From Acidobacteriaceae bacterium KBS 83 (GTDB lineage: Bacteria > Acidobacteriota > Terriglobia > Terriglobales > Acidobacteriaceae), in assembly GCA_000381585.1 (NCBI GenBank), contig KB906740.1, positions 186,001-250,000 on the forward strand: DNA of 64,000 bases. Reading direction: 5' to 3'. The position numbers and the translations under genes were made by a program. This document shows positions 19,216-23,368 of this stretch, piece after piece (positions within the stretch are counted from its first letter, which is position 1; each line of letters begins with the position of its first letter). The notes beneath the pieces were generated by a model. That model searched no databases. It had not been told where the DNA came from and saw only the letters and a list, made by a program, of their open reading frames with translations.

Positions 19216-20104
19216 TCGAACTTTTGACCCTGCGCAGAAGGGACTCTTAGGGTTCCTGAGCCCTGGCTGAAGCCGCGGTAAAAGGGCCCTTGAACGGGCT
19301 GACCGATAGGACCCAATCGGTAGTGGAACCGGGGCCAGGGTGGTGCGCGGAAACGTGAAGGGACGGCACTCTGATCGGTTGCGAAGGCCAACAAGGACTT
19401 GGAAGCCGGCGGACGGGGACATTTGGCTGATGAGCCTGTTGAGCATTGAAGTCTGATCGTCGCGAAACAGGGCGGCGGAGCTCGGCCAGCTCCGCGCGAC
19501 TCGATGAACAGAAGGTCCGAACCGATCGCGCATGTCTGCGATCCAGGGAAGCCGGAGCGGATAGCGAATTCCTGAACCGGTTGGCTTTTGCTGCGTCCAA
19601 GAGAGGTGCGGAGAGAATGCGAGCCTCCGACCCCTGGTCCCGAAGATTGCGTTCCACAATTCTGTATTCTTTGGACAGAGCTGTAGGCCCTTGTTTTGCG
19701 AGGATTTGTCCGCCTTCAGGCAAATGGTTCTCAGCGCCAAAACAAGTGCTTCTAAACGGGCACAGGGCACAAATGTGGGCACACTAGCAACGCCCAACGC
19801 GGTAGTCCTCGAAAGGCGCTCAAAACCAGCAAGGAGGACGCTACTCTCCCAGGAAGGTTGTACCAGTCTTCATTGTCCCGATCTGGCACCACTCTTTGTC
19901 AATGCCAATTTCCCGTAAGTCATTGATTGCACTTAGCTTTTTAGTGCCATATCCGATGCGGCTCGGGTGTAGTATTAAGGTATCCCTTGGGCACCGCAGT
20001 GCTGGTTTTATATTTGACACTCTGGTGCCATTAGGTGCATCTTATGGATGTACTCGCAGGAAGGAATTCCTGCTAAACCCTCAACCAGGGAATAATATGG
20101 TGAG

Positions 20105-20129
20105 AAGGGGTCGCCTTGAGCGACCCTTT
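20105..20129. terminator. hairpin downstream of the 20132-20719 gene
   Basis: AAGGGGTCGC, loop CTTGA, then GCGACCCTTT forms a 10-bp stem with one mismatch, three bases past the end of the minus-strand gene. The T-run is short, so termination strength is uncertain. Confidence 0.55.
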
Positions 20130-20131
20130 CG

Positions 20132-20719
20132 CTATTTGGCCCATAGGATAACGGCCAATTCTTCCTTCTTAAACCGTTCACGGGGGAAGATTGTGACCGG
20201 CATCCGGGTCTTTCCCGCGATAGCGCATATGAGAACCCGATACCTCGGCCTCTTATCGGAGCCGAACTTTCCGATATAGGCTTCGCCCGGATTGGCCTTT
20301 CCCATCGGCTGCCAATTTGGCACGATCATCCATGGCGATTCGATGATCGTTCGAGCGGCAGAAAGCTCTCGCGCGCGTTGTCGCTCGAAGTTGGCGGGCC
20401 AGTGCTTCGAGCCATGGAAAATCTTCAATTCACCTGCCCTTATTTGCTGGACGGCCCTCCCGCGATGCTTGGGCTCCTTCTGGTACCTGTCGGTAAGTTT
20501 GATTAGGTGGATGAAGTCCTCGTGCCTGAACTCGACGAGATTCCCGCGGCAATCTCGAATTTCTGGCCGACACAGATTCCGATCGTACCAATTGAACAGA
20601 TCCAGCATTGAATCGAGAGGAAGGAGATCAGGTGCTCCCTCCAGAGGTTCAGCATCCCCCGCTACCTCCTCCTCAGCCTGCTGATTGTCCATTGGTCTGG
20701 AACTTGTCACTGCACACAT
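20132..20719 (-). CDS. conserved hypothetical protein, possible PBECR-like domain
   Basis: Protein of 195 aa, cytoplasmic, no signal. The N-terminal half has a DLFNWYDRNLCRPEIRDCRG segment and the C-terminal half a strand-rich part (SPWMIVPNW, EAYIGKF, YRVLICAI, PVTIFPRERF). The ending, a basic domain with alternating strands and a late Arg/Lys cluster, is reminiscent of phage-type barnase/EndoU/RelE-like (PBECR) nuclease domains, but no catalytic set can be assigned by eye. It is divergent from the small zinc-ribbon genes and may belong to the same accessory cluster. Confidence 0.6.
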   Translation of the reverse strand: MCAVTSSRPMDNQQAEEEVAGDAEPLEGAPDLLPLDSMLDLFNWYDRNLCRPEIRDCRGNLVEFRHEDFIHLIKLTDRYQKEPKHRGRAVQQIRAGELKIFHGSKHWPANFERQRARELSAARTIIESPWMIVPNWQPMGKANPGEAYIGKFGSDKRPRYRVLICAIAGKTRMPVTIFPRERFKKEELAVILWAK

Positions 20720-20817
20720 TTTAGTGCTCTCCGGAAAACTAGCCTGTGGGAACCCTGGACAGGGGAATTTTCGCCTTTTCTTTGCCTTTCCACATCCTAT
20801 GGAGCTAGGCTGCCGGA

Positions 20818-21003
20818 ATGCGAGTTTTCCTTCATCAGCGGCAAGCTCTCGTTCGGTGCAAAGTCTGTCGCGCCGCCATTCCCAGCCTTACGCGCGGGCG
20901 GCCCATGCTCCCCACTCCGGTCCTCTGCAACGTCTGCGGAGCCAAACGCGCCTACCGGCCATCGGAAGTCTTCATTGGCACGATCCGACGTGTCTGGAAG
21001 TAG
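20818..21003 (+). CDS. small zinc-ribbon protein
   Basis: Protein of 61 aa with two C-x2-C knuckles (VRCKVCRA and VLCNVCGA) separated by about 25 residues, then a basic tail. Ribosome site weak (GGAGCTAGG region is distant). It is followed 14 bases later by another Cys-rich small protein on the same strand. Role unknown; similar in build to the zinc-ribbon protein at 2957-3151. Confidence 0.55.
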   Translation: MRVFLHQRQALVRCKVCRAAIPSLTRGRPMLPTPVLCNVCGAKRAYRPSEVFIGTIRRVWK

Positions 21004-21016
21004 ACAGGGCGGTCCC

Positions 21017-21397
21017 GTGGAAGCGAATGACAGCCCTCCATACCGGCACTGGCATGTTGTCTGCGCAGCGTGCGGCAAGATCGCTCTCGCGCGTCCTCGT
21101 GCACCCCGTCGCGAGATCGAGCCGGTGGAACACAACCCCGTGGTGAAGTGTCAGCACTGCGAGGACACACGCCAATACCTAACGAAAGACTGCTTTCTGG
21201 CGCCTCTCTCCGTAGCAGGCTCGACAGACAAATCAGCGGGAGCCCTTGCGGTGGTGGCCGGTCTCATCGCGGCTGTGAAACAGGCGCGGGTGGAATCGGG
21301 AGAATTGCAGAGCCGGAGCCCGCGGGTGAGGTCGGCAATCGCTGACTCGATTACGATCGCAAAGATGGTGATTGCGGAGGCGAAAACGCGGCAATGA
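21017..21397 (+). CDS. small protein with N-terminal zinc ribbon and C-terminal helix
   Basis: Protein of 126 aa from the GTG at 21017 (AGGGCGG upstream). It has VVCAACGKIALA and VVKCQHCEDTRQY knuckles in the first 50 residues and an Ala-rich, probably helical C-terminal half. An upstream TTG (20975) would overlap the previous gene. Its last codons overlap the start of a 34-aa gene (ATGA). Probably nucleic-acid or protein binding; I cannot name the family. Confidence 0.6.
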   Translation: MEANDSPPYRHWHVVCAACGKIALARPRAPRREIEPVEHNPVVKCQHCEDTRQYLTKDCFLAPLSVAGSTDKSAGALAVVAGLIAAVKQARVESGELQSRSPRVRSAIADSITIAKMVIAEAKTRQ

Positions 21398-21498
21398 CGA
21401 ATCAGCAGATAGAGGCGGAGGCGTTGCGCATCGTCGAAGAGGTGGCTCGCAGAAAATCCGATCTCGAACTGACCGAATACCATGACGAAGTTCGTTAA
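21394..21498 (+). CDS. 34-aa acidic peptide, coupled by ATGA overlap
   Basis: MTNQQIEAEALRIVEEV and so on to TAA at 21496, mostly acidic helix. The start overlaps the stop of the previous gene by four bases, typical of coupled genes. Too short to classify. Confidence 0.45.
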   Translation: MTNQQIEAEALRIVEEVARRKSDLELTEYHDEVR

Positions 21499-21519
21499 CG
21501 TGCCGACCATCCGCCCGGA

Positions 21520-21612
21520 ATGAAGATGCGGGATCACAACGCAATCGTCCGTGGGGCGATGCGTGAGGCCATCCGTCGAGGGATTTTCTGCGTCCACAGC
21601 GTGGTGAGGTGA
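21520..21612 (+). CDS. 30-aa basic peptide upstream of SRAP gene
   Basis: MKMRDHNAIVRGAMREAIRR and ten further residues. It ends 5 bases before the SRAP start, and its 3' end carries the GAGGTGA ribosome site of that gene. A leader or coupling peptide is possible; it may also be chance. Confidence 0.35.
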   Translation: MKMRDHNAIVRGAMREAIRRGIFCVHSVVR

Positions 21613-21617
21613 CTGCT

Positions 21618-22355
21618 TTGTGCGGAAGGTATGTTAGACGATCAGACAAGCAACGCATCACCGAACACTTCGCTGTTCATGGCCCGTCTCTGCCTGACTT
21701 TGGGCCGAGCTGGAACGTCGCGCCCCAGACCTTCCAACCCATCGTCCGGTTGAATCGCGACACCGGAGAGCGCGAGCTGGTGCTCATGCGGTGGGGCCTT
21801 ATCCCCTTTTGGGCCAAAGACCCGAGCATCGGACTCCGCACGATCAACGCGAAAGCCGAAACGGTTACGACAGCACCCGCGTTCAGGGAGGCGATCCAAT
21901 TCCGCCGCTGTCTCGTTCCTGCGGATGCGTTCTACGAATGGCAGAAGCTGGATGCAAAAACAAAGCAGCCCTTCGCGATTGGGATGAAAGACGGCCAACC
22001 TTACGCGCTGGCGGGATTATGGGAGAAGTGGAAGGATCGCAAGGCTGGTGGAGAGTTGCTGACATTCACGGTGATCACTACTGACCCGAATGAGGTTGTG
22101 CAGCCGCTCCACGACCGAATGCCTGTCATCATCCCAGAACGCGATTATGACCGCTGGTTGAAAGCTGATCCAGAGCGTCCCCCGATTGACCTGCTTCGTC
22201 CTTTCGAGGCGGACAAGATGACAGCGTGGAGAGTGGACAAGGCTGTGGGCAATGTGAAGAACGATTCGCCGGAGTTGATCGAGCCGGCTTCAGCAACGCC
22301 CGAATCGTCGGAAAATCGCTCCCCAGATACTCCAGGATTGCTATTCGGCGCGTAG
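21618..22355 (+). CDS. yedK: SOS response-associated peptidase (SRAP, YedK/HMCES family)
   Basis: Protein of 245 aa. The TTG at 21618 is the start because it gives MCGRY, placing the catalytic Cys at position 2 after Met removal, with GAGGTGA 6 bases upstream. The other SRAP residues are in place: WNVAP (32-36), Asn77 in TINAKAET, Glu107 in ADAFYEWQ and His165 in PLHDRMPVI. The protein forms a thiazolidine crosslink to abasic sites in single-stranded DNA and shields them. The C-terminal 30 residues are a Ser/Pro-rich tail. It lies at the end of a run of tiny zinc-binding genes and overlaps a convergent gene by 15 bases. Confidence 0.95.
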   Translation: MCGRYVRRSDKQRITEHFAVHGPSLPDFGPSWNVAPQTFQPIVRLNRDTGERELVLMRWGLIPFWAKDPSIGLRTINAKAETVTTAPAFREAIQFRRCLVPADAFYEWQKLDAKTKQPFAIGMKDGQPYALAGLWEKWKDRKAGGELLTFTVITTDPNEVVQPLHDRMPVIIPERDYDRWLKADPERPPIDLLRPFEADKMTAWRVDKAVGNVKNDSPELIEPASATPESSENRSPDTPGLLFGA

Positions 22356-22580
22356 CGTTTCCATTTCGGCCTTGGCACGTCTGGCGTGGGCCGCTCTTTG
22401 CGCTGCTCTCTTCCTTCCTTCGACGGTGCGCCTGTCGAATGGGTCTCCGAACTTGACCGGCTTGTGGACTTTGCCGTCCTCGTAACCAGAGTTTGCAGCA
22501 CGGGTGCATGCCAGATCCGCAGCGGCGTTGCCGGCGTCTCGTCTCCGGTGTGAGAGAAGTCGCAGAATCAGTGCATGCAT
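22341..22580 (-). CDS. small basic hypothetical protein
   Basis: Protein of 79 aa, starting MHALILRLLSHRRR at an ATG with GGGGAAG upstream, and ending in a Lys/Arg/Ala-rich helix (EGRKRAAQRAAHARRAKAEM). Its 3' end overlaps the SRAP gene by 15 bases. Charge suggests nucleic-acid binding. Not recognised; kept because of the ribosome site. Confidence 0.4.
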   Translation of the reverse strand: MHALILRLLSHRRRDAGNAAADLACTRAANSGYEDGKVHKPVKFGDPFDRRTVEGRKRAAQRAAHARRAKAEMETLRAE

Positions 22581-22817
22581 ACAACTTCCCCTTTCCGTTG
22601 ATTCAAACCTTGCAGCCGGCTTGCGGCGCTTCCTGCGCTGCACCAGCCTGCCTTCCTTGGAGACCACTCAAACCTCTGCACAAAAGTTGAGTCTCGATCG
22701 CAGGAAGGATTTTGCGAAGTGTCGGCTACCGGACGGAACCCAGTAAACCCTCGTCGTAGCTTCTGATATCAAAATCGGAGCAATGGCTGTTCAGCCCTAC
22801 TCCAAAGGGACGAAGCT

Positions 22818-23179: not shown

Positions 23180-23368
23180 CTAAGCTGAAAGCGCCTGAGA
23201 GAAGCTAGGGTGAGACTTGGGAACGAATGGCTTTGCTTCTCTGTAGATTCCGAGAGCGTTGAGATGTCTGCATGGCTTATTAGTCTTCTGAAAATAGCTG
23301 CAATCACAACTCCGACGATCCAAAGAGATGTTGTACCAAGCACTGCCGGTGAAGGATTTCAGGCGCAC
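23180..23368 (-). CDS. small SWIM-type zinc finger protein
   Basis: Protein of 62 aa from GTG 23368, preceded by a strong AAAGGAGG site (about 23379-23386 on the complement). The motif SCDCSYFQKTNKPCRHLNAL fits the SWIM finger CxCx(n)CxH. SWIM domains occur in MuDR-like transposases, SWI2/SNF2 helicases and RecA-regulators (Shu2/Sws1), where they bind DNA or proteins. Here the domain stands alone. Probably real despite its size. Confidence 0.6.
   Translation of the reverse strand: MRLKSFTGSAWYNISLDRRSCDCSYFQKTNKPCRHLNALGIYREAKPFVPKSHPSFSQALSA

Follow-up and report, generated by a model that had tools for sequence, protein, structure and literature searches.

A predicted LexA-repressed SOS operon of small zinc-ribbon genes and an SRAP gene in an acidobacterium

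In a 64-kb stretch of the genome of the soil acidobacterium Acidobacteriaceae bacterium KBS 83 (G000:C8:186001-250000, hereafter the window; the genome comprises 6.25 Mb in 21 contigs), a row of very short genes ends in a gene for an SRAP protein of the YedK/HMCES family. From sequence evidence we predict that this cluster is a LexA-repressed SOS operon, a reading that we regard as probable because the box in front of its first gene, zr61, is the one site in the window that strongly matches a motif also preceding lexA, recA and imuA-like loci. The cluster has this operator in common with lexA and recA of the clade, as a member of the LexA/SOS regulon should. Genomes, contigs and fetched loci are denoted by G, C and L numbers, with G000 being the host.

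A predicted LexA-type operator ahead of zr61

The DNA upstream of zr61 relatives from other genera is alike, and the same direct repeat precedes lexA, where it lies 37–78 bp upstream of the helix-turn-helix (HTH) in all 24 lexA loci in which the HTH was located by script. The motif derived from these sites is TTCGCY-N5-TTCGCY. A matrix was built from 28 lexA promoters, with four boxes (L112, L131, L133 and L139) added by eye; its consensus is TTCGCCTTTTATTCGCCAATACT and its left-out scores range from 17.8 to 33.6. When the 64-kb window was scanned with this matrix a single strong site was found, scoring 22.1 against 8.9 for the next best, and this site ends 25 bp before zr61.

The box is present before 29 of 30 lexA-type loci of relatives, 28 of which built the matrix; of the two outside it, L141 has a box of 28.9 and L140, which is a second gene of lexA type in G010, lacks one. 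The host's own lexA scores 20.0 when left out of the matrix and its own recA 14.7. Among recA-type loci, all outside the matrix, a site of at least 16 occurs in 13 of 22 (11 of 19, plus two of the three partial loci L176, L178 and L179) and three more score 14.7–15.1. The imuA-like loci, likewise outside the matrix, carry a box of at least 24 in seven of eight cases, located ∼100–300 bp upstream of imuA and facing the other way; the divergent gene may therefore be its target, either alone or together with imuA. All 28 hits of at least 16 in the 449,238 bases of fetched loci (L052 and L071 being one site listed twice) stand at lexA, recA, SRAP or an SRAP remnant, or small genes, which indicates specificity within those loci and not in a random genome, as the loci were fetched for such genes.

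The host genome contains 13 matches to the box pattern versus three for a reversed control pattern. Eight of the 13 are located at the window cluster, its decayed copy on contig C10, dinB, an imuA-like gene (PF00154), a REase-ARP nuclease gene (C5:477195), Ku (PF02735), an SRAP copy and an SRAP remnant. The dinB gene (IMS domain; L152, G000:C4:750605) lies behind a 152-amino-acid (aa) open reading frame (ORF) with two CxxC motifs and a box of 27.3, and a box of 20.6 stands beside the divergent Ku gene (L154, G000:C9:83067). The top box of the pattern hits, scoring 31.6 at G000:C1:300485-300507 (L144:1501), has no obvious gene in its direction.

Small ribbon and helical genes under the same box

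The motif CxxC-x(n)-CxxC-x5-Y is common to zr61, its relatives and the first half of the second Cys-rich protein of the cluster (11 sequences), and the CxxC...CxxC pattern suggests that these ribbon proteins bind zinc. In the second protein, which is 126 or 135 aa long depending on the start codon, the ribbon is followed by a predicted C-terminal helical segment. This protein is 53% identical to a 125-aa protein of the same-family relative G089, the one true relative, in Acidobacteriaceae, returned by a genome-contig scan; a 15-residue match in a Bacteroidetes metagenome-assembled genome from the same scan was disregarded. With the host included in both counts, zr61 has matches in 9 of 150 genomes and a profile of the helical segment (A2) matches 25 of 150 at E≤0.01. 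The ribbon ORF adjoins the helical ORF in G039 and G088, and both are found in one protein in G029. Structure prediction for the second Cys-rich protein and for the divergent 195-aa protein p195, proposed with the initial annotation, was carried out with AlphaFold2. The 135-aa form folded with one relative gave strands then helices at a predicted local distance difference test (pLDDT) score of 47, a poor confidence, and p195 alone gave 34; both models were too poor for a fold search.

A box of at least 16 occurs at nine of ten zr61-type loci, a count that includes two loci of the host and one of the same genus, and at 16 of 30 helical-domain loci (those of the 34 profile-match rows that have a locus). 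Ten of the 12 best helical loci, one of the ten being the host's own, have the box on the same strand, and at six weaker ones it lies close upstream in the opposite direction. A second helical subfamily (DEGRKRVLLIAASILAAR-like) was observed at L092, L093, L095, L096, L103 and L111, with boxes just upstream in the opposite direction.

The helical loci also show what the boxed small genes are paired with. SRAP is adjacent or within ∼1 kb at 5 of the 12 best: the window, G061, G063 (where it lies in two frames in that assembly), G029 (where it is convergent and behind a nuclease gene) and G039:C19 (where an SRAP start of 33 residues only is followed by a transposase gene). At two of the 12, in G089 and G029, a REase-ARP nuclease (PF22558; E = 2.2e-38 and 9e-41) follows the boxed ribbon-helical gene; no match was obtained when solved structures were searched with the G029 protein of this nuclease. 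The initial annotation had asked whether the whole set co-occurs elsewhere. Pairs of ribbon or helical genes with SRAP do recur in other genera, albeit with a cut-off SRAP in G039, so that there is co-occurrence beyond close relatives, the lack of which would have counted against the initial annotation by its own criterion, but the full set was found in the host alone. The suggestion of a DNA-processing unit gains support from the SRAP, from these pairs and from the one LexA-type operator in front.

Several observations weigh against a LexA-repressed operon. In 100 simulated 64-kb sequences there were six sites of at least 16, the highest at 23.2; the box score alone is thus no proof, and the argument rests on the place of the box 25 bp before zr61 and on its recurrence. 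The window box has a degenerate −10 part, and a scan of 19900-22700 found no sigma-70-like promoter. Five of the 13 pattern matches in the host genome are at no repair-linked gene, and the reversed control itself has three. The profile by which the helical loci are ranked was itself drawn from six of the 12 best. No locus with every gene of the set was found outside the host genome, where the full order exists only in the window and in the decayed C10 copy, and in the same-genus genome G001 the third gene, a 72-aa ORF, has no SRAP behind it. Finally, the box is present at only 3 of 29 SRAP loci in other genomes and at three of six SRAP copies of the host.

The 26 SRAP loci of relatives that have no box would also be expected if SRAP and the small genes were accidental neighbours, each ordinary and expressed apart, as would the several zr61 relatives that lie beside unrelated genes. 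We consider this very unlikely given the presence of SRAP at 5 of the 12 best helical loci, when only 2 of the 56 SRAP-bearing genomes exceed three SRAP matches (the 55 other than the host, from 120 searched, have one to four each). As most SRAP loci are without a box, the regulated unit appears to be a small-gene leader that SRAP joins in some genomes. In G009:C90 (L080, L184), one of the three boxed SRAP loci of other genomes, SRAP is divergent from an imuA-like gene and the two share one box of 29.8.

In the SOS operon as we infer it, LexA bound to the operator would keep zr61, the 126/135-aa gene, the 72-aa ORF and SRAP off in undamaged cells as a single transcript. DNA damage would activate RecA, leading to LexA self-cleavage and transcription of the genes. 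SRAP would then shield abasic sites in single-stranded DNA by forming a covalent link to them with its Cys2, with the small zinc-ribbon proteins most likely being DNA- or protein-binding helpers of this step.

SRAP, the split reading frame and scattered copies

The identification of the last gene as SRAP was borne out by a PF02586 match of 243.5 bits (cut-off 27.1; E = 2.2e-72) that covers positions 1-214 of 214. It also matches three unnamed PHROGs and, under cut-off, one NCBIfam model. The start is most likely the TTG listed in Table 1 and not the GTG at 21609, as the former yields Met-Cys-Gly-Arg-Tyr and is preceded by GAGGTGA; three other SRAP copies of the host begin with MCGRY from ATG (C3:128773, C3:328802 and C3:155661, the last later frameshifted). 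The available part of PMC9436759 describes SRAP chemistry as requiring Cys at position 2 and names catalytic Asn, Glu and His residues. By motif, and with the start so placed, the window protein has Cys2, NAKAE at 77, the Glu of FYEW at 107 and the His of HDRMP at 165. It thus resembles the YedK/HMCES abasic-site shield treated there in its full-length domain and in these residues, and differs from it in its TTG start, in its place behind small zinc-ribbon genes and in having several paralogues in the host genome, most of them decayed. Phage relatives of SRAP number 73 records, all <60% identical and the best listed 45%.

The ORFs of the row are present as placed by the initial annotation, but there are fewer genes, because its 34-aa and 30-aa peptides are, by sequence comparison, the halves of one 72-aa frame with an in-frame stop. 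The same-genus locus G001:C395 reads 72 continuous residues, all 72 of which match the window with one internal stop, and the stop is missing from the C10 copy (C10:106.6k). Two separate peptides were rejected on these grounds. Other parts of the C10 copy have decayed: a deletion has fused zr61 to the last part of the second gene, and there are frameshifts. One further match to the 72-aa ORF (36%) was found among 399 genomes of the class.

As estimated from ratios of nonsynonymous to synonymous substitution (dN/dS), zr61 (0.06, window vs G001:C78), the 72-aa ORF (0.13, window vs G001) and SRAP (0.21, between two paralogues) show purifying selection. A codon score trained on eleven genes of the window was strong for SRAP, moderate for p195, the 135-aa ORF and the 34-aa half, and barely supportive for the 30-aa half; it gave no support for zr61 or for a basic ORF at the end of the cluster. 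Of the seven or eight cluster ORFs compared with Pfam and PHROGs, only SRAP had a match at E≤0.001, and NCBIfam and PADLOC, searched with five cluster proteins exclusive of the two peptides, gave none at that level for the non-SRAP proteins.

Table 1. Features of the cluster, in window coordinates
Feature	Position	Strand	Remark
Predicted LexA (SOS) operator	20770..20792	+	Direct repeat TTCGCC-N5-TTTGCC; between p195 and zr61
zr61, 61-aa CxxC...CxxC zinc-ribbon protein (zinc binding predicted)	20818..21003	+	First gene past the operator
126-aa zinc-ribbon and helical protein (predicted)	21017..21397	+	GTG at 21017; 135 aa if GTG at 20990 is the start
72-aa ORF split by stop at 21496-21498	21394..21612	+	Halves 21394-21498 (34 aa) and 21520-21612 (30 aa)
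SRAP (YedK/HMCES family)	21618..22355	+	Probable TTG start; putative ribosome site 21606-21612
p195, 195-aa divergent protein, rare family	20132..20719	-	Would belong to the unit through the operator
Basic ORF, overlaps SRAP convergently	22341..22667	-	Probably a remnant; membership doubtful

Copies of the region are scattered over the host genome, which has 12 SRAP matches and, for the region at the DNA level, 17, the window itself included. Intact SRAPs are those of the window, C3:128773 and C3:328802; long broken ones lie on C5, on C10 and at C3:155.7k, and the rest are short fragments. A 440-bp piece that includes the last part of a 135-aa-type gene and the first part of SRAP is 98.6% identical at L011:6880-7317 and L049:8034-8473, two distant places on contig C3, and parts of the C10 copy diverge unequally from the window (synonymous divergence, dS, of 0.53 in zr61 vs 0.09 in part of the 72-aa ORF). 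These scattered, decayed copies show that the unit duplicates within the genome. They would also fit a decaying mobile or repeat module with SRAP and the small genes as its cargo, such as a prophage, an integrative element or another duplicating unit. We hold this to be unlikely. For zr61, the 135-aa protein, the 72-aa ORF and p195, no relatives turned up in viral contigs, by single-protein scans that reach close relatives only, or in the plasmids searched, and p195 has none in phage records. No integrase or transposase was recognised by eye among the ORFs of 18–25 kb or by Pfam in the seven flanking ORFs, which are ordinary by Pfam, and the 64-kb window has no tRNA. The idea of a mobile-element module in the initial annotation is thus not upheld, and a prophage or plasmid origin is unsupported.

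L009 (G000:C3; 2870-3151 and 8508-8791) carries a copy of SRAP and, 5.6 kb away, a remnant of the gene. Each of the two is accompanied by a box and by a divergent ORF with CxxC; one of these ORFs matches HEPN_Apea (E = 2.3e-6) and the other LIM under cut-off. Beyond the cluster, the window also has a short minus-strand ORF at 23180-23368 with a SWIM-like zinc motif by eye, perhaps a remnant of a larger gene.

p195 lies on the opposite strand with its start 50 bp from the operator, which would control it as well. This arrangement raises the alternative of a defence or toxin-like unit, in which the small proteins would keep p195, as a BECR-type RNase, in check until DNA damage sets it free. p195 may be BECR-nuclease-like, as one of four p195 relatives matches PBECR4 (E = 0.011, 16.6 bits, under the cut-off of 27) and p195 has a weak PADLOC match to PDC-M04B (E = 0.014), but p195 itself matches no Pfam family at E≤1. 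Its family was found in 6 of 399 genomes of the class, the host included, with relatives in G007 (∼0.7 kb upstream of lexA), G154, G176, G210 and G221. By tblastn the loci of six p195 relatives contain no zr61, 135-aa protein or SRAP, and those of G154, G210 and G221 have no box of at least 10. On this evidence we think the toxin-like unit quite improbable and keep to the LexA-repressed SOS operon.

The basic protein that the initial annotation placed at the cluster end is present as an ORF, but codon usage gives it no support (score −1.9) and its coding signal is weak. Over 28 codons it differs from the C5 copy at 5, 3 and 12 sites by codon position, a weak third-position excess, and it has a weak match to phrog_7746 (E = 0.0094). 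We consider it a possible remnant.

Relation to known SOS operons and significance

The LexA box of Acidobacterium capsulatum, which we take to be a relative of the host, is said to have been published, to judge by the title of a 2006 report by Mazon et al. The alphaproteobacterial LexA motif, GTTC-N7-GTTC in the available part of PMC3323433, has the same 11-bp period as the repeat of the window box.

SRAP (YedK/YoqW/DUF159) genes have been described in SOS-linked neighbourhoods, and two zinc-ribbon-like domains near SRAP with Ku (Aravind et al. 2013, PMC3765255, in the part available). The window cluster is like those operons in having an SRAP in an SOS-linked neighbourhood, with the zinc-ribbon likeness being one of description only, and unlike them in that no Ku, DinB, ImuB or UmuC was recognised adjoining the SRAP. 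For Ku this covers the ORFs of 18–25 kb by eye and the seven flanking ORFs by Pfam; the host's Ku gene lies away from the cluster, beside the box at C9:83067. The available main text of PMC3765255 does not contain the string 'Acidobacteri'. Since SOS-operon SRAPs, some with zinc-ribbon-like genes, are in print there, the claim of an undescribed system was too strong. As far as sequence can tell, the cluster appears to hold undescribed small proteins within an SOS-associated SRAP operon, an already known kind of operon. The open-licence literature on acidobacterial LexA/SOS, SRAP and REase-ARP yielded no account of the small proteins, in part among the matches listed. The REase-ARP nuclease resembles the window SRAP in following a boxed ribbon-helical gene in G089 and G029; it is not in the window cluster, and its function is read from the family name only.

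Relatives of the small genes carry the same box in other genera, which points to a part in the bacterial DNA-damage response for small proteins that have yet to be studied. The split 72-aa frame also illustrates how decay can make one ORF pass for two peptides. Under a predicted LexA box, orphan tiny ORFs of a large, little-studied phylum become a testable group, and the box matrix offers a direct means of drawing the SOS regulon of Acidobacteriaceae. That such genes are found time and again beside SRAP or a nuclease suggests that abasic-site protection has partners still to be studied. More tentatively, tiny LexA-controlled zinc-ribbon/helical proteins might be damage-induced adaptors that steer interchangeable DNA effectors (SRAP, the REase-ARP nuclease, perhaps DinB and a BECR-type RNase) to damaged DNA in Acidobacteria; we put this forward as a speculative extension that may well prove wrong. 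If true, it would add to the SOS response a new layer made of proteins of ∼60–165 residues.

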